NCBI GenBank assembly: GCA_030610885.1
Contig: JAUWQW010000013.1
Coordinates: forward strand, 1-36,723
Direction of reading: 5' to 3'
Source of the DNA: Candidatus Aminicenantota bacterium
GTDB taxonomy: Bacteria > Acidobacteriota > Aminicenantia > UBA2199
Length of the DNA stretch: 36,723 nt
Shown: piece by piece, positions 1 through 9,290 of the stretch
Numbering within the stretch: position 1 is the first letter of the stretch
Layout: the number at the start of each line of letters is the position of its first letter
Translations under genes and position numbers: made by a program
Notes under the pieces: generated by a model
What the model saw: the letters and a program-made list of their open reading frames with translations, nothing else
What the model was told of the DNA's origin: nothing
Database searches by the model: none

Positions 1-1
1 A

Positions 2-1528
2 GGGCAGAGTGTTTTGAAAAACGATGTTGTGCTGGATGATTACTGTCCACTCTGCCTACAAGAAAAGAGCAAAATAGAATTGATTGTAGAATTAAATGAA
101 AGGATTAAAGACTTAGAGGAACTAGAAATAGAGAAGGATAAGTTAGAAGAACAGGAACAAAAATTAAAAGATATTTTGCGAGTCAATATCAATACGATTG
201 ATGGATTACTCAAAGAGATGCTTTTCAAAGAGGAAAAGCAAGCCAAATTTTTTGAGAAGGTTCAGCAAATTAAAACCTCTTTGAATGCCTTTTCTGATGA
301 ATTTAAAAAGGAATTGATAGGTAAAGACCCAATTCAGGAGCCTAGCAAAATACAGATTGATAAGAAAGATATATCTGAACTTGCCAAGCAAGCACAAGGC
401 ATGGCAAAAACGCTCACAGAAAGTAAGAGATCAAATATAAAATTCCAAATATACACCAAGCTATTTCACGCAGTCACCGCTTACAATCAATATCAAAGCA
501 TTAAAAGACAACAAGAAATACTAACAAAACAACAAGTGACATTCCAACTGCTTTTTGCCGATTTTATTAAAAGGCAAGAAGAAGCTTTAAATGTGCTTCT
601 TAAAATGTTCTCCGCAAACATTGATGAATATTACACTACTATGAACCCCCATGAGAAAATTGAGGATATTAAGTTAGTACCAATTAAGGACAAAAACGAT
701 GACCTAGTCGGAATAACAATCGAATATAGCTTTTTTGATGAAACCAAAACGCCACCAATCGCCTATTTGAGTGAAAGTCACATTAACTGTCTTGGCCTAT
801 CTTTCTTTTTAGCTTCTGTTAAAGCATTCAATAAGCAGAACGAATTTTTTGTCCTTGACGATGTTATTTCAAGTTTTGACAGGCCACACAGATCAAGGTT
901 CGCAAAACTGCTAACTGACAAGTTCAGCAACTACCAAATTCTGTTACTTACACATGAACAGGGATTTTTTGAATTAGTGGCCAGTAATGTAAAAAGTAAA
1001 GGTTGGCTAATTCAAGATTTTAAGTGGTCAAAAGAGAACGGGGTAGGAATTGAAGAAGGCATAACTGATATCAAGGAACGTATTCTCAAGAAATTTGAGG
1101 CCGAAGACAAAGAAGGACTAGGTAATTATATCAGGATTTATACTGAAAAGGTAATGAAAGAAATAGCCTACGACATAGAGGCCCAAGTTGCTTTTAGATA
1201 TAATGAAATAAATGAAAAGAGAATGGCTGCTGAACTATTGGATGCTGTGCATGGTCGAATTTCAAAGAAGGGAAATGAATTAAAGGATAAGGCCAACATT
1301 CAAAAACTGAAGGGAATGCCAATGTTCATTGGTAATGTCACATCTCATGACAATGAGTTCACAGAAAGTATTGAGGACTTAGCAGCAATATGGGAAGATA
1401 TTGAGAAGACCATTCATATCTTTTACTGCGCCGAGTGTAGGAAGTTTATCTCTATCAAATATTTTGACAATGTGGAAAGCAAAATCAGGTGTGGGTGCGG
1501 CAAGTTGACTTACGATTGGAAGAAGTAA
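2..1528 (+). CDS. SMC/RecN/Rad50-like AAA ATPase, C-terminal part (5' end outside window), with CPLC hook-like motif and C-terminal zinc ribbon
   Basis: Frame is open to the window edge. CPLC flanked by coiled coil, Walker B-like 'FFVLDDVISSFD', 'LLLTHEQ', terminal CxxC...CGCG. Confidence 0.8.
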   Translation, partial: GQSVLKNDVVLDDYCPLCLQEKSKIELIVELNERIKDLEELEIEKDKLEEQEQKLKDILRVNINTIDGLLKEMLFKEEKQAKFFEKVQQIKTSLNAFSDEFKKELIGKDPIQEPSKIQIDKKDISELAKQAQGMAKTLTESKRSNIKFQIYTKLFHAVTAYNQYQSIKRQQEILTKQQVTFQLLFADFIKRQEEALNVLLKMFSANIDEYYTTMNPHEKIEDIKLVPIKDKNDDLVGITIEYSFFDETKTPPIAYLSESHINCLGLSFFLASVKAFNKQNEFFVLDDVISSFDRPHRSRFAKLLTDKFSNYQILLLTHEQGFFELVASNVKSKGWLIQDFKWSKENGVGIEEGITDIKERILKKFEAEDKEGLGNYIRIYTEKVMKEIAYDIEAQVAFRYNEINEKRMAAELLDAVHGRISKKGNELKDKANIQKLKGMPMFIGNVTSHDNEFTESIEDLAAIWEDIEKTIHIFYCAECRKFISIKYFDNVESKIRCGCGKLTYDWKK

Positions 1529-1600
1529 TGACCATCGCAAATTAAGTATATACATTTGGCAGCTATCATACTCGGCAAACAAGCCGTTGAGAAAGAAACA

Positions 1601-1671
1601 CATAACAACTGCATCAACTCAGACTGGTAAATACACTTCGCTTCAAAATGCAGGTAAATGCAACCATTATG
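1601..1671 (+). repeat. attC-like integron recombination site (site A)
   Basis: CATAAC-aac-TGCAT ... ATGCA-acc-ATTATG imperfect palindrome. Left half TAACAA-n5-TCAA-n3-(A)GAC follows the attC/VCR pattern. Lies just downstream of an ORF. Confidence 0.5.
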
Positions 1672-1682
1672 TAGTATAAAAA

Positions 1683-1775
1683 ATGTTTTTGTAAAATTCA
1701 CAAAAGTTTATTGACATTAGATATTTTTTATACCAATATAATATCTTACACATAACAATACAAAAAGGAGTTATA
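1683..1775 (+). promoter_or_regulatory. Repeated leader/promoter module, copy 1
   Basis: ATGTTTTTGTAAAATT ... TTGACA (1711) ... ATAACAATACAAAAAGGAGTTATA. Homologous to 3548-3646, with identical 41-nt spacing from TTGAC to ATAACAATA. Confidence 0.55.
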
Positions 1776-1797
1776 CCTCTAAAAAGAATGAAGTAAT

Positions 1798-2922
1798 ATG
1801 AAGTCTCAAATAATACAACTTAACAAAGAATTTCTAGAAACTATTGATATCTTACCAGATCATAAAATTCAACCGCCACTCATAAGTTTATTTTATAATG
1901 TCAGGAGTCGGGAAACCTCAACGTCTGTTGCTTCATTTAATGGCTATAAATTAATTTTTTCACCTTCTGAAAATGAAAATATTACTGATGTAGTAAAAAG
2001 GGGACTTTTATTTGCAGATTTAGTAATTTTAAATCATCCAAATATTGATATTGAATCATCTTTTTGTTTATTTCTTGTCCCATCATGGTTTCCTGATAAA
2101 AAATATGATTATTCTGCACTACATGATAAGGAAATACCACCACATTTAATTTTGGGTGGTAATGCCACTATTGCGGCAGGTTCTAGAGCCAAATTGGCTG
2201 ATGGCTCATCAGATGGTGTGCCAGCTACTGGTAATTATTCACTTTTACCAGAAAATATTGCGAAATGGTGTGTTACCGAAGGTAAAGAATTGATTAATTC
2301 TGGTCAGGTTATGTATTGCCCAATAATCCCCCCTGCCTCTTGGGAGCAATACCTATACTCAAAGGGTGTTAATTTTCAATCATTTTATAAAACATATAGA
2401 ATTCTCCCCCAAAATCAATCTTATCTCGATGATAACGTTGCTCGTGCAATCCAACATATTGATCTACCATTAATAACAAATATTGATCTGAAAACTTTAA
2501 ATAAAATAAAAAATGATGAGCGTGATAGTTTTGAAAAATTTCGTTCATATATGTTACAAGCGATTAACTCAATGAATTTTGCTGCACATTCAGATAATTT
2601 TGATAAACAAATGAGTATAATGAATGAAAATATACGCGCTGGTATTGAAGAAGTAAGAAGTGTTCACAAAAAAATTAAAAAAATGAAATTTGCAGAATTA
2701 AATAAAATTATGTTTATTGCCTTGCCAACAATTGTTTCAGCATTTATAAATGATCCTAATATAAAAATTCTTGGTCCTACATTATCAATATCGCAAGCTG
2801 TAATTGAATATTTAAATCATTTATTTGCAAATATAAAGAATAAATCAGAATTAAAAACTAACCCTATGTATTTTCTTTGGAAGATTTCTAAGGAAAAGCC
2901 AAAGACTGATATAAAGGTCTAA
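1798..2922 (+). CDS. Hypothetical protein, 374 aa, no family recognised
   Basis: Long ORF on the strand expected for a cassette gene, followed by an attC-like element. No recognisable motif. Confidence 0.75.
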   Translation: MKSQIIQLNKEFLETIDILPDHKIQPPLISLFYNVRSRETSTSVASFNGYKLIFSPSENENITDVVKRGLLFADLVILNHPNIDIESSFCLFLVPSWFPDKKYDYSALHDKEIPPHLILGGNATIAAGSRAKLADGSSDGVPATGNYSLLPENIAKWCVTEGKELINSGQVMYCPIIPPASWEQYLYSKGVNFQSFYKTYRILPQNQSYLDDNVARAIQHIDLPLITNIDLKTLNKIKNDERDSFEKFRSYMLQAINSMNFAAHSDNFDKQMSIMNENIRAGIEEVRSVHKKIKKMKFAELNKIMFIALPTIVSAFINDPNIKILGPTLSISQAVIEYLNHLFANIKNKSELKTNPMYFLWKISKEKPKTDIKV

Positions 2923-2931
2923 TAAATAAAG

Positions 2932-3036
2932 GTATAACAATCGCATTAAGTCGGACGCTAAACAGCTCGGCGGTTATTCGGAATTTTGTCTTTCGCTTTT
3001 ACCTCAATGCTGATGCGTAAGTTGGTTGCTACGCAT
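2932..3036 (+). repeat. attC-like element (site B; 3' boundary uncertain)
   Basis: GTATAACAATCGCATTAAGTCGGAC left half matches TAACAA-n5-TYAA-n3-GGAC. Contains hairpin ATGCGTA/TACGCAT (3013-3036). Confidence 0.4.
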
Positions 3037-3099
3037 GTTTGGCGCCGCAGAAATTCATGTTAAGAATGTGTCTCATTCTTGAACAAACCTAAACATTAA

Positions 3100-3128
3100 T
3101 TGACATAAAAAATTCCGTATGCTCTAAT
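3100..3128 (+). promoter_or_regulatory. Sigma-70-type promoter upstream of 85-aa ORF
   Basis: TTGACA (3100-3105), 17-bp spacer, TCTAAT (3123-3128). Confidence 0.5.
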
Positions 3129-3179
3129 AAATAATATAAAAATGAATTATAGGAAAAAAATAGTTAAAAGGGGGAAAAC

Positions 3180-3437
3180 ATGAAATTAAACGTAAAAGCA
3201 TTTGCTTTGACTTGTGCTTTGGTTTGGGGACTAGGATTGTTTCTTCTTACATGGTGGATAATTGCTTTTGATGGTGCAACAGGTGAAATCACATTTATCG
3301 GACGATTTTATCGTGGTTACTGCATAAGTCCTACGGGTAGCCTTATAGGCTTGGTTTGGGCATTCATAGACGGTTTGATTGGGGGTGCAATATTTGCGTG
3401 GCTTTATAATTTTATTTCTCGCCGTGCAGCAAAATAA
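3180..3437 (+). CDS. Small two-TM membrane protein of the 'bacteriophage holin'-annotated type
   Basis: 85 aa. Two hydrophobic segments, 'TWWIIAFDGATGEITFIGRFYRGY...GSLIGLVWAFIDGLIGGAIFAWLYN'. GGGGG-type RBS upstream. Confidence 0.6.
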   Translation: MKLNVKAFALTCALVWGLGLFLLTWWIIAFDGATGEITFIGRFYRGYCISPTGSLIGLVWAFIDGLIGGAIFAWLYNFISRRAAK

Positions 3438-3464
3438 AAATTGTTGAGAAACCAATATAAAAAC

Positions 3465-3540
3465 CTATAACAAATCACTCAACGCGACTATCTTTCGCGC
3501 TTTCAGCGCTCCAGCTGGCGGGTTAGTTTTGATGTTATAG
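3465..3540 (+). repeat. attC-like integron recombination site (site C)
   Basis: CTATAAC ... GTTATAG perfect 7-bp complementary ends, 76 bp. TAACAA-ATCAC-TCAA-CGC-GAC left half and GCGGGTTAGTTTTGAT right half. Confidence 0.6.
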
Positions 3541-3547
3541 AAAGAAC

Positions 3548-3646
3548 ATGTTTTTTGTAAAATTTTTTCTTATTTTTTGTTTGACTTTAGAGATTCGTCT
3601 AAATACAATTATATTTCATATATAACAATATAAATAGGAGTTATAT
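3548..3646 (+). promoter_or_regulatory. Repeated leader/promoter module, copy 2
   Basis: ATGTTTTTTGTAAAATT ... TTGACT (3581-3586), 17 bp, TACAAT (3604-3609) ... ATAACAATATAAATAGGAGTTATA. Confidence 0.55.
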
Positions 3647-3668: not shown

Positions 3669-4286
3669 ATGAGAAAGAAAATATCATTAGGATCACTTAC
3701 AATTATGCTGGTTCTTGCCTTTATTTTGTCAGGCATCAGTGTGCACGCCGCACAGTTTACAGCGGATCTGATAATTACCGGACCTGACACTGATTACACT
3801 TTCAAATTATATGTAAAAGATAATATGTACCGCCTGGAAAAGGTCAAAGGCGGTATAAAATTCCCGCCGTATCCAACCATTGTTAACAGAAACACCGGAC
3901 TGACCTGGGGGTTAAATCCGCAGGTGCGCCAGTATGTGGAGATGACTAATATCAGGCAAACTATGATGATGAACCCCATTATCGGTTGGGAATTTATGCG
4001 AAAAGACATGGAGAAGCAGCCAGGCCCTATTGAGACCTTAAGCGGATATACATGCGAGACAAGCATTTACCACGAACCAGGAAAATCTCGAATATCCGCC
4101 AAGATTTGGATCTCCCGAAAGCTTGATCATTTTATAAAGCAGGTTCATTACGCTGATAATAGTGATGCTATAATGGAACTTCAGAATATAAAAGAAGGAC
4201 CTGTGGACGAGGCCCTTTTCAAGATACCTCAGGACTATTCAAAGATGGAAATGCCTGATGAGAGGCAGGCCAAAACCGAACCTTAA
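3669..4286 (+). CDS. Exported DUF4412-like periplasmic protein
   Basis: Signal peptide 'MRKKISLGSLTIMLVLAFILSGISVHA'. Overall pattern of outer-membrane-carrier-type DUF4412 proteins. Strong RBS aggaggaa. Confidence 0.6.
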   Translation: MRKKISLGSLTIMLVLAFILSGISVHAAQFTADLIITGPDTDYTFKLYVKDNMYRLEKVKGGIKFPPYPTIVNRNTGLTWGLNPQVRQYVEMTNIRQTMMMNPIIGWEFMRKDMEKQPGPIETLSGYTCETSIYHEPGKSRISAKIWISRKLDHFIKQVHYADNSDAIMELQNIKEGPVDEALFKIPQDYSKMEMPDERQAKTEP

Positions 4287-4392
4287 AAACCAAAATCAAT
4301 AGTAATATAAGCATCAGGGAAATGATTACATGATGTACGACAACCAATCATTTTGGTGAGTGCTTCATGACTGTGTGAGGGGTGACAGTGCT

Positions 4393-4770
4393 TTGGCCAC
4401 AAATTTACCTTCTGCATCATTAGCAGGTGCAGTTGCCCTTGCAATAGGTATTGGAATCCAGAATTTTCCTGAAGGCACTGCAGTTTCTGTCCCTTTACGA
4501 AGAGAGGGATTATCTAGACTTAAAAGCTTTTAGTATGGGCAACTATCAGGGATTGTTGAACCCATTGCAGGAGTTATAGGTGCAGCTGCAGTAATTTGGA
4601 TGCAACCGATTTTACCGTATGCCCTATCTTTTGCTGCAGGTGCTATGATTTATGTGGTAGTTGAAGAAGTTATCCCTGAATCGCAGTTGGATAAAAATAC
4701 AGATATTGCAACAATTGGAGCAATGATAGGTTTTGCCTTGATGATGACATTGGATGTTGCTTTTAGCTAA
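4393..4770 (+). pseudogene. ZIP family metal transporter, C-terminal remnant
   Basis: Conceptual translation '..[72 protein letters not shown]..'. ZIP motif present, N-terminus missing, in-frame TAG where TGG (W) is expected. Confidence 0.85.
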
Positions 4771-4822
4771 AGAAAATATAGGAGATGAATATGAATAAAG
4801 AGATTCTTCCTTTGCCTGATAA
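4769..4822 (+). repeat. 54-bp direct repeat, copy 1 (duplicate of methyltransferase gene start)
   Basis: AAAGAAAATATAGGAGATGAATATGAATAAAGAGATTCTTCCTTTGCCTGATAA. Differs from 9426-9479 at 2 of 54 positions. Confidence 0.95.
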
Positions 4823-4889
4823 TATGATAAAACGCTCCATCAAACTCAATCCTAAGTGGGCTAGCCATATCTGTAGTATAGCTCAATAA
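4785..4889 (+). pseudogene. Truncated copy of the N-terminus of the 9442 methyltransferase gene (MNMNKEILPLPDN...*)
   Basis: Translation begins MNMNKEILPLPD, identical to the 9442 ORF, then diverges and stops after 34 residues. Confidence 0.7.
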
Positions 4890-4898
4890 GATTTATAA

Positions 4899-4938
4899 GT
4901 CAAAAACGGAGACCTGACCCCCAATAATAATGAACCGG
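4899..4938. mobile_element. Possible remnant of a RAYT/Y1-transposase-type element terminus
   Basis: 'gtcaaaaacggagacctgacccc' resembles sequence often seen next to REP-associated transposases. No transposase ORF present. Confidence 0.3.
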
Positions 4939-5057: not shown

Positions 5058-5079
5058 ATAACAATATAAAAAGGAGTTA
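5058..5079 (+). repeat. Partial leader module, copy 3 (ATAACAATATAAAAAGGAGTTA)
   Basis: Nearly identical to the 3' end of copies 1 and 2. The upstream TTGAC part is absent. Confidence 0.6.
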
Positions 5080-5124
5080 GCTGCCTACTGATAAATCAGC
5101 GAATAAATTATAGGTAAAGAAATT

Positions 5125-6780
5125 ATGAATAATCAAAATGAAGACAGCCTTTCACCACCATCAGTACAAAGAGAGTACGAAGATCCCTGGAATAAGCTTA
5201 ATATTGATCTTGAAGCTGTAAAATTTAATTATCGATATTTAAAATCACAACTTCCGCCAAGAGCGATATTTTACGCTGTCTTAAAATCCGATGCATACGG
5301 ACATGATCTTAAAGAAATTGGAAAGGTTCTTTCTCAATCTGGATGTATGCACTTTGCAGTTGAATCTCCACAAGAAGGAATTCGGCTTCGTAATGAAGGC
5401 ATTACTGGTGACATATTATTAATGAATCCAATCCCCACATGGATGGCTGAATTATCTATTCGACATGATTTAAGTGTGTCTGTAATTCATGAATCCATTT
5501 TACAGCCATTAGAAGAAGCAGCTCAACTAATGGGAAAGATTTGCCGAATTCATTTAAATGTAAATATTGGATTAAATCGGATGGGGATTGCGCCATCAAA
5601 AATACTTAAAATTGCCAAAGAAGCAGCTTCTAAACCACATATTGAATTAGAAGGATTGTTTGGGCAACCCAGTGATTCTACCAGCGATCTTGAGTCATTC
5701 AAGCATTTAAAAAATATTTATGAAAAACTAAAATCAGAAGATGTCGCCCCAATTTATTTGCATTTTGCAAACAGCACTACTTTTTTAGCTCATCCTGAAA
5801 CCATTGCCGATGGTGTACGCCTGGGGATATTATTATATGGCGTTCTTCCGCCAGAACAATACAAAGTAAAAACAAAACCAAATCAATTAAAACCTGTAAT
5901 GAGCTTAAAAACAGAAATCGTACAAATTAGACAATTGCCTATAGGAAGCAAAATTGGTTACCATTCCAAAGAAAAAACAGAACGAGATTTAATAATTGGC
6001 ACAATTCCAATTGGGTATAATCACGGTTTAGATCGTAAACTATTAAACGGTGGTTATGTAATTGTTCATGAACAAAAAGCGCTATTTATTGGTGCGATAT
6101 CGATGAATTCATCAACGATAGATATTACTGAAATTAAAGATGTTGAAATTGAGGATGAAGTAGTAATAATTGGTCGACAAGGAAAACAAGAAATCAACAT
6201 AAATGAACTGGCTGAAAAATCAGATACTATTGCTGCAGAATTAATGATGCGCTTTGGAAAAAGCATAGCCAGAAATTATCAAATAGACGAACAGGATGTT
6301 ACATCAGAAATTATTATTGAACAAAAAAAAACAGATGATATTCACATTCGATATTTTCAAACAGAAAATGAATTACCTGAATGGATGAATGTTTATAATA
6401 TTGCGAATTTTTTACAAACGCATCTTATACCATTCGATGACCCAAAAGATGTTATTTCTACTGCTGTTGAATATGCTTTGTCTGCTCATCCAGGCGGTAA
6501 AGGTTTTATTTTATTAGCCACAATTAATGAAAAGCTTCTTGGCGTTGTTGTTTGTATACGAATCGATAAAGTAGGTATTATACCTGAAAATTTAATTGTT
6601 TATGTTTGTGTTCATCAAAATTATCGGGGAAAAGGATTGGGCAGTCGGTTGGTTCAAGAAGCAATTGACTGCGCGGATGGTGATGTAAAATTACACGTGG
6701 AAAAGACAAATCCCGCTATAAAGCTTTATAAAAAATTGGGTTTTAAAGATGATTATATTGAAATGCGTTTTTTGAAATGA
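5125..6780 (+). CDS. Alanine racemase-like fold-type III PLP domain fused to a C-terminal GNAT acetyltransferase domain
   Basis: 'AVLKSDAYGHD' (PLP Lys), 'HFANSTTFL', 'DGVRLGILLYGVLPPEQ', 'IGYHSK'. C-terminus 'VYVCVHQNYRGKGLGSRLVQEAIDCA..LHVEKTNPAIKLYKKLGF' is GNAT motif A/B. Confidence 0.9.
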   Translation: MNNQNEDSLSPPSVQREYEDPWNKLNIDLEAVKFNYRYLKSQLPPRAIFYAVLKSDAYGHDLKEIGKVLSQSGCMHFAVESPQEGIRLRNEGITGDILLMNPIPTWMAELSIRHDLSVSVIHESILQPLEEAAQLMGKICRIHLNVNIGLNRMGIAPSKILKIAKEAASKPHIELEGLFGQPSDSTSDLESFKHLKNIYEKLKSEDVAPIYLHFANSTTFLAHPETIADGVRLGILLYGVLPPEQYKVKTKPNQLKPVMSLKTEIVQIRQLPIGSKIGYHSKEKTERDLIIGTIPIGYNHGLDRKLLNGGYVIVHEQKALFIGAISMNSSTIDITEIKDVEIEDEVVIIGRQGKQEININELAEKSDTIAAELMMRFGKSIARNYQIDEQDVTSEIIIEQKKTDDIHIRYFQTENELPEWMNVYNIANFLQTHLIPFDDPKDVISTAVEYALSAHPGGKGFILLATINEKLLGVVVCIRIDKVGIIPENLIVYVCVHQNYRGKGLGSRLVQEAIDCADGDVKLHVEKTNPAIKLYKKLGFKDDYIEMRFLK

Positions 6781-6792
6781 GTATAATAATTT

Positions 6793-7854
6793 ATGGATTC
6801 TTTGCAAAAGAAATATGAGATAGATAAACACACATGGGATGAATGTGCAGAAACCTATGAACGCCAAATTGTGGGTGGACATCCTGATATTTTAGCGTTT
6901 GAAGAATTTGAAGAAGATTTTTTAGACCGTGTCCTTCGGTATTTGTCTGAAAAACAAAAGCGTCCCATCAAATTAATGGATATAGGCTGCGGATCAGGTC
7001 GTTTGCATGTACGATATGGCACTAAAACACACAGTATAGCTGAACTCGCTCAATCACATCCTTTGTCTTTATTAAAAATGAATTCCCCAAAGCTTGCTTA
7101 CGATCCAGTTATAGCGAAAAGTCTTATAGAAGTGTGGGGAATTGATTTCTCTCGAAAAATGATTGATTTGGCAAAAGATAAATTACAAAAAGTTGGTTTG
7201 AAAAATCATCATGAAATGGCACTAACATTTGAGCAAGGTTCTGCGTTTGAGTTAGAAGAACAATCGGGCGAGATTTTACCTGTTGCGATTTGTTTGGTGA
7301 ATTCTATTGGTGTTATGCAAGGCTTTGAAGGCGCAAATGAGTTATTTAAATCAATGCGTAGAGCTGTTGAATCGGCTAATGGAATTGCCATTATTTCCTG
7401 TTATCAACAAGAATATATCAAAAGTTATGGATTAGGGCAGTATGAATCGACAATAGATGTATCAGGGCAACCTATTTGGATGCAGCCCGACACTTATGCT
7501 TCGTCTCAATTCAAACAAATTCCAAAACAATATAAACTTGCGTATAGCAATGACAATAAATTGATAGTCGATGTTTTTGACTTGCATGATAATTTAATTA
7601 AAAAGGGTTATGTTTTAGTAAGAGACCCCGACAAAACTGAACAAACTATTAAAACAGGTGATATAAATACCTATTCAAAATATAAATCGCACTGGTATAG
7701 TTATGACCATATTGAAGAATTAATAAATGACCATTGGGAAACTCAAAAATCATATCATATTAAAACGCGATATTTAGATATCATAAGAGCAGAACCAGCT
7801 CAGATGGCAATTCTTGATTTTGGCGATCATCTTAAAAACATTTTTAAGCTCTGA
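6793..7854 (+). CDS. SAM-dependent methyltransferase (class I), with insertion between motif I and motif II
   Basis: 'IKLMDIGCGSGRLH' motif I and 'GIDFSRKMIDLAKDKL' motif II. Starts 12 bp after the upstream stop. Confidence 0.85.
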   Translation: MDSLQKKYEIDKHTWDECAETYERQIVGGHPDILAFEEFEEDFLDRVLRYLSEKQKRPIKLMDIGCGSGRLHVRYGTKTHSIAELAQSHPLSLLKMNSPKLAYDPVIAKSLIEVWGIDFSRKMIDLAKDKLQKVGLKNHHEMALTFEQGSAFELEEQSGEILPVAICLVNSIGVMQGFEGANELFKSMRRAVESANGIAIISCYQQEYIKSYGLGQYESTIDVSGQPIWMQPDTYASSQFKQIPKQYKLAYSNDNKLIVDVFDLHDNLIKKGYVLVRDPDKTEQTIKTGDINTYSKYKSHWYSYDHIEELINDHWETQKSYHIKTRYLDIIRAEPAQMAILDFGDHLKNIFKL

Positions 7855-7865
7855 AAGGTGTTGTA

Positions 7866-9272
7866 ATGGAAAATCCCTGGATTCAATACATAATCATTGT
7901 TGTCTATTTTATTTTTATTGTTACGAAAGGAATTCGTCGCTCAAAAGAAATTAGTGATAGTGATGACTTTTTAGTTGCGGGACGTAATATTGGCTGGTTT
8001 TTTCTGCTTTGTACAATGGGGGCAACAGTCGTAGGTGGCGGCGCTTCAATTGGCGCTATTGGCAGAACTTATGAGTGGGGAATCCTGATGTTAGCGGTTT
8101 CTTCTGGCTGGTACATTCATTTTATATTTTCTGGTTTATTTGTAGCTCCCCGTTTTCGTGAAGCAGAACTTTATACTGTTGCTGGATATTTTGGTTATCG
8201 ATTTGGGGCGAAAAGTCGATTTATTGCTTTTATATTATCGCTTCTTTTTTCCATAGGTATATTAGGCGCGCAAATGGTGGCTTTCGGGAAAATCATCACG
8301 ACAATGATTCCTCAGTTATCTTACTTTTGGGCTGTTATTATTGGCGGTGGCATCGTTATTTTATACAGTACTGCTGGCGGACTGTTAGCTGTTATTCATA
8401 CTGATGTTTATCAATTTATTATATTAATTGTTGGTTTTGCGATTACTTTAATTCTTTGTGTACCTGATTTATTAACGAGCGCTAACCAAATTTCTGTTGT
8501 TGTGCCTACAGAATTTTTTCAATTAGACGGTGGAAAAGGTTGGTTATTTTTAGTGACGACGTTTATTGCCTTTTTATTAGGAGAAACATTTGCACCAAGC
8601 TATGCGACCAGATATTGTGTTGCCAAAAACATTAAAGAAACAAAGCAGGGTATTGTTGGCGCTGGTGTCTTTTTAGCATTAACATTTCCCATAATATTAT
8701 TTTTTATTGCTCTTTATGCCCGATTGCATTTCCCCAATATCGATCCGGAAATGGCGTTGCCAAAAACTATACTAAAGTTGAATAATCCTTATGTAGGTGG
8801 TTTAATTATCGCTGCTTTAATGAGTGCAGTTATGTCATCTGCTGATTCAATACTAAACTCATCTACTGCAATCTTTGTTAAAGATCTATACGAAGAATAT
8901 ATTGCTAAACTAAATACTAATACCCAAAAAGGTCTTTTAATTGCTCGTGTTAGTTCAGTAGTTTTAGGTGGATTAGGAATCCTTTTAGCGCTTATTTTAC
9001 CTAATATAATTGATTTGCTTCTTTTAACTTACAATCTTTGGGCTCCAGGTATTATTTTACCTGTAATTTTTGGTATATTTTCAAAACAAAGGTCAAAATC
9101 TTTAAACAATATTATTTTTATAACAATGCTCATTTCTACTGTTGCAACTATTGGCTATATGAATACGCAATATAAAGAAATAATTCAACCCAGTGTATTT
9201 GGTGTGGTTGTTTCATGTATATCCTTTTTAATATTAAAGATAACATTAATTAAGAAAAAAGGCAGAAAATAA
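7866..9272 (+). CDS. Sodium/solute symporter (SSS) family protein
   Basis: Polytopic. 'DSDDFLVAGRNIGWFFLLCTMGATVVGGGASIGAIGRTYEWG', 'ALMSAVMSSADSILNSSTAIFVKDLY'. Confidence 0.9.
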   Translation: MENPWIQYIIIVVYFIFIVTKGIRRSKEISDSDDFLVAGRNIGWFFLLCTMGATVVGGGASIGAIGRTYEWGILMLAVSSGWYIHFIFSGLFVAPRFREAELYTVAGYFGYRFGAKSRFIAFILSLLFSIGILGAQMVAFGKIITTMIPQLSYFWAVIIGGGIVILYSTAGGLLAVIHTDVYQFIILIVGFAITLILCVPDLLTSANQISVVVPTEFFQLDGGKGWLFLVTTFIAFLLGETFAPSYATRYCVAKNIKETKQGIVGAGVFLALTFPIILFFIALYARLHFPNIDPEMALPKTILKLNNPYVGGLIIAALMSAVMSSADSILNSSTAIFVKDLYEEYIAKLNTNTQKGLLIARVSSVVLGGLGILLALILPNIIDLLLLTYNLWAPGIILPVIFGIFSKQRSKSLNNIIFITMLISTVATIGYMNTQYKEIIQPSVFGVVVSCISFLILKITLIKKKGRK

Positions 9273-9290
9273 ATTCATAAATTATGGGTA

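Follow-up and report, generated by a model that had tools for sequence, protein, structure and literature searches.

The first 3,640 nucleotides of the window, a stretch of 36,723 nt that makes up the entire contig C48 of the MAG G000 (2.5 Mb, 128 contigs, 92.6% complete), are a cassette array of an uncultured bacterium with attC sites and no integrase, cut at the contig start, in which a repeated module of about 100 nt stands between each attC and the next open reading frame. Since the promoter-like part of the module stops at the very G|TT at which various cassettes start, we read the module as a probable attI-like site, dispersed and furnished with a promoter of its own; promoter activity, use as attI and route of spread are inferred. 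The standard integron possesses a single attI and a single Pc, and its distant cassettes are mostly silent. The window appears to differ from this arrangement in having a module copy ahead of each of its cassettes. The initial annotation had read the region as a probable cassette array, perhaps a CALIN or the tail of a chromosomal integron, and had reported no integrase in the window; this reading is supported, but the annotation overlooked the repeated module between attC and the next ORF. Assignment to CALIN, on at least two attC sites and no integrase on the contig, is supported, and the absence of the integrase may reflect assembly at the contig edge. The genomes compared included G000 itself, its congeners G001 and G002, G003, and G006 of another genus.

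Three attC sites were delimited on the forward strand: A at 1599..1674, B at 2931..3067 and C at 3464..3541. The annotation had listed three attC-like elements, each after an ORF; A and C were confirmed by covariance model and B by anatomy, and the distance from ORF stop to site is 71, 9 and 27 nt for A, B and C, respectively. As seeds for the covariance model R2 we used eight sites outside the window with attC geometry (seven from G000 and one from a congener), with A, B and C left out. An unfiltered scan of the window gave two clear matches, at 3466-3542 with E 3.9e-5 and at 1601-1674 with E 1.6e-4; the following one had E 0.88. Covariance matches had been anticipated at about 1601, 2932 and 3465; our own model gave them at 1601 and 3466 but none at B, which it misses because of the long variable arm. 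The leave-out matches are decisive, and sites A and C are attC sites. In an outside control with plasmid loci, models R1 and R2 matched the class 1 integron attCs of aadA, aadB, catB3 and aac(6')-IIa cassettes (best E about 1e-5). With the attC geometry held fixed, 78% of pair cells contained standard pairs, compared with 23-38% when the partners were slid. A shuffle control found no covariation in the attC alignment, and a scan of the window at Rfam gathering thresholds gave zero matches. A hand-written attC geometry scanner picked out C only and its totals did not exceed those of the reversed sequence; since it failed this control, the covariance model was used in its place.

Site C has canonical geometry, with the crossover at G3534|T3535. 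Site A has the R'' box CACATAAC at 1599-1606 and the R' box ATTATGTAG, in which G is changed to A at 1666. The complementary ends first described for both sites are perfect in C and amount to six pairs in A, but because the R' box of A carries an A at the crossover G, it is damaged and the site is probably impaired. Site B is long (~137 nt) and partly decayed, with its crossover at G3059|T3060, the R'' box GGTATAAC, weak end complementarity in situ and an L''/L' helix GTCGGACGCTAAAC/GTTTGGCGCCGC of ~12 pairs with two extrahelical bases. On this anatomy, since its R'' matches the opening bases of the cassette to which it belongs and the L''/L' helix is present, site B is a long, decayed attC. 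The TAACAA starts lie at 1603, as annotated, and at 2935 and 3468 instead of the reported 2934 and 3467. A search of the 2.5-Mb genome for TAACAANNNNNTYAANNNNGAC, the left-half pattern, gave three occurrences, two of them in the window and all of them forward, against 2+2 in the reversed control, a count that is suggestive but not decisive as attC evidence. Folding better than shuffles, the annotation having named bottom-strand folding as a test, was found for C only, whose z against shuffles was -3.0 in situ on the + strand and -3.1/-2.7 with the R' of its own cassette; A and B in situ folded no better than shuffles (z about +0.5). These two folds, together with several decayed sites in the genome, would fit chance resemblance or another type of intergenic repeat, an explanation that is very hard to reconcile with the leave-out matches, the independent matches to class 1 attCs and the R''/cassette-start complementarity within the window. 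If functional, A to C would be sites of excision and integration by IntI.

The first cassette carries an ORF at 2..1528 (+) of 508 aa that has lost its 5' end at the contig edge and encodes an SMC/RecN-like ATPase that weakly matches Mad3, a component of the MADS defence system. The ORF of cassette 2 (1798..2922, +; 374 aa) matched no family, and that of cassette 3 (3180..3437, +; 85 aa) matched the NCBIfam holin_4 subfamily above cut-off. Behind the third module lies an ORF for a DUF4412 protein (3669..4286, +), downstream of which the covariance-model scan found no attC. Between the DUF4412 and Ala racemase genes, positions 4390-4770 hold what was judged by eye to be the remnant, with stops, of a ZIP-type metal transporter gene. 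Named relatives of one window protein come from MAGs labelled Acidobacteriota and KSB1; a ClpB-like protein has 59-62% identity in three such MAGs and a weaker match in the fourth.

The module carries TTGACA, followed by AT-rich sequence and, as leader, CATAACAATATAAAAAGGAG|TT. Module 1 (1667..1770, +) is of a long form, starts at the R' of attC A and ends in ACACATAACAATACAAAAAGGAG|TT (91% match, E 9.7e-29). Module 2 (3060..3146, +) is of a short form that begins with TTGACATAAAAAATTCCGTATG, has its leader end mutated to ATGAA|TT and shows 91-95% identity to three copies in the congener G002. Module 3 (3535..3640, +), long and diverged, starts at the R' of attC C and ends in AGGAG|TT (78% match, E 6e-15), and an isolated leader, ATAACAATATAAAAAGGAG|TTA, lies at 5058..5079 (+). 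We counted ~30 copies in G000 and 13 in G002; in G006 there are seven that match less well. The short form has a different promoter (window 3099 and contigs C21, C76, C80 and C82) and the copies in G006 a third type, with the leader unchanged in both. The -35/-10 spacing of the long module, ~20 nt, is atypical and a sigma-70 scan gave no promoter excess; promoter activity is putative. A role of the leader as a ribosome-binding site alone was considered and rejected: G|TT is kept though GGAG varies, and the ORFs mostly begin 15-120 nt beyond it, often behind their own SD; an additional ribosome-binding role may exist. No exact match to the leader was found in viral contigs.

By rule, the first bases of a cassette (TTRRRY) complement the R'' box of the attC of that same cassette. 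The start of cassette 1 lies outside the contig, and the boundary can be tested for two window cassettes, both of which begin exactly at the final G|TT of the leader (2/2, one leader having G changed to A). Cassette 2 (1771..3059, +) opens with TTATACCT, complementary to AGGTATAAC in the R'' of attC B, whose box pairs with the opening bases GTTATACC; the complementarity extends over 8 nt after the G. Cassette 3 (3147..3534, +) opens with TTATAGG, complementary over 7 nt to the R'' of attC C, CCTATAAC, which pairs with GTTATAGG. Among 38 starts that follow modules, the start of cassette 2 ranked second or better for B (two equal B matches) and that of cassette 3 ranked first for C (one match). 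These matches support site B and place the starts of cassettes 2 and 3 exactly at the leader end. Elsewhere, on the G006 contig C735, where a module is followed by two cassettes, each start matches the R'' of its own cassette, over 6 nt counted from after the G in the first and over 12 nt including the G in the second, and on C82 the cassette start TTCTGCT matches the R'' AGCAGAAC. A genome-wide permutation over nine testable module/attC pairs found no significant start-to-R'' complementarity (p 0.096), because several of the nine pairs are decayed or fail, and we therefore limit the boundary claim to the window plus a small number of loci elsewhere.

The inverted boxes CATAAC/GTTATG in the leader, and a start of module 1 (TTATGT) that complements the leader box ACATAAC, could mark the module as a gene-less, promoter-only cassette with its attC shrunk to CATAAC...GTTATG, comparable with those of Vibrio and Treponema, and cassettes of this kind do exist (PMC11014356, PMC6557892). 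We consider this improbable: the boxes are just 13 nt apart and without L boxes, module starts and leader boxes do not covary across copies (TTCTATAG starts), and a single leader is common to two different promoter types. Nor is the module part of every cassette, as follows from the order on C82, attC-module-cassette-attC-cassette-attC-module.

Covariance-called attCs lie immediately 5' of a module in 11 of 14 cases, a number inflated because several seeds of the attC model were found through module adjacency. Some modules precede genes that have no recognisable attC (for instance a gene for a TPR protein and one resembling opine dehydrogenase), which would suit an ordinary CALIN, or a cut-off sedentary integron, in which the modules are genus-specific host promoters. 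Cassettes would have inserted at these as attG-type sites, and selection for expression of the inserted gene would have kept them. Insertion at non-classical attG sites is a published route (reference 57 of PMC12901181), and we regard this account as possible though rather unlikely. Against it, many modules have cassette boundaries at both edges, 18 of the 19 whose left edge is intact come directly after an attC or an apparent attC right half (half-sites judged by eye), and the other genus keeps the leader though its promoter differs.

No protein scored above the TIGR02249 cut-off anywhere in the 92.6% complete MAG, and no complete integron (intI + attI + Pc) was found in it; C-terminal IntI remnants occur on its contigs C39, C57 and C59. 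The congener G001 encodes a 336-aa protein that resembles IntI (354.8 bits against a cut-off of 265) and has 36% identity to IntI1, in which R146, K171, R280, H303 and Y312 are conserved and H277 is replaced by Q, so that HxxR reads QxxR. This gene (G001:C75, L124 462-1472), the only intact one of its kind in a congener, adjoins a radical SAM gene that was judged by eye to be coproporphyrinogen-oxidase-like, and its short contig (2.7 kb) has neither attC nor module. No module was seen beside intI, the region in G033 having been read by eye. A 239-bp segment is 96% identical in G000:C39 (L016 7983-8221, -) and G000:C57 (L018 528-762, -); it contains the final ~30 codons of a gene resembling intI and then ACACATACG|TT, after which the two loci continue with differing cassettes, the start of the one on C39, TTGTGTGC, matching the attC R'' GCACACAAC. 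The segment resembles a duplicate of the intI tail and attI from an integron of the same-direction (Treponema-like) type in which intI has been truncated. On G000:C59, 38643-38750 and 44505-44624 (-) are two intI-like pseudogenes with internal deletions; ahead of each lie promoter-like sequence and AGGAG|TTAAATC, which resembles the leader.

For the cassette genes of the window we found no DNA match in G001, G002, G003 or G006, though the modules match G002; on this comparison cassette genes are strain-specific and modules conserved. One locus occurs with the same flanks in three states, as two G002 alleles (G002:C162, L179, and G002:C129, L176) and in G000:C21 (L038). The G002 alleles have either one module or two modules that enclose a gene for an EamA transporter together with the right half of an attC, an apparent gain or loss of a cassette within a single bin, and G000:C21 has ~2.1 kb of other DNA at this locus. 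In the allele with a single module, the left flank is that of the first module and the interior that of the second, a pattern expected from recombination between module copies. Window positions 5078-9285 carry genes for an Ala racemase-GNAT fusion, a methyltransferase and an SSF symporter with 90% DNA identity to the 'Acidobacteriota' MAG L049, with unrelated flanks, and the homology starts at 5078, adjoining the G|TT of the isolated leader; this 4.2-kb block was likely transferred horizontally. The contigs G000:C90 (L183 ~3789-4167) and G000:C101 (L040 ~4543-4921) share one gene end (93% identical) with different attCs, and the identity breaks near the R'' box.

The attI-like reading would account for window 1-3640 as the end of an integrase-less array of three cassettes, each ending in attC and then a module. 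Each module would behave as a copy of attI with its own cassette promoter, and an integron integrase, acting in trans or in the past, would have joined cassettes at the leader G|TT. Every cassette, or cassette pair, would then be transcribed from a standard promoter rather than from a distant Pc. The modules may have spread by the integrase or by homologous recombination between copies. Counting against this reading are the lack of a module beside intI, the p value of 0.096 for the nine pairs, the atypical promoter spacing and the modules without attC. A broader proposal is tentative: a many-headed integron whose ~30 attI-plus-promoter modules would each serve as landing site and promoter for a short array, addressable by an integrase in trans.

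If cassettes each sit behind a promoter/attI-like module, this would be another way of keeping arrays expressed and would explain the usefulness of integrase-less CALINs. The repeated, ~90% identical modules would offer a route for cassette gain and loss through homologous recombination, and a conserved frame around differing genes is relevant to how cassettes are put together and distributed, a question still open. Among open-licence papers we found no description of dispersed promoter/attI-like modules.

CALINs are clusters of attC sites without an integron integrase (IntegronFinder, PMC9024848). The array agrees with them in having at least two attCs behind same-strand ORFs, no intI nearby and an assembly that ends at the array, but a module copy heads each cassette here, whereas CALINs have not been described with attI or promoter heads of their own. 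Promoter-bearing gene-less cassettes of Vibrionaceae (PMC11014356) and Treponema (PMC6557892) likewise provide in-array promoters that would feed downstream cassettes; they are varied and have their own attC, in contrast to one conserved module without a canonical attC. Insertion at attG sites (reference 57 of PMC12901181) also puts cassettes at G|TT away from the integron platform, although at scattered unrelated sites and not at one repeated promoter module. The delta-attI-type cassettes of class 1 and 2 integrons, in which attI fragments usable by IntI1 occur within arrays (PMC12901181), share with the module a core rich in A that precedes G|TTRRRY. In those cassettes a fragment of attI takes the place of the attC downstream of the ORF (PMC12901181), whereas the present module is situated upstream of the ORF, the attC is retained and ~30 copies occur in one genome.
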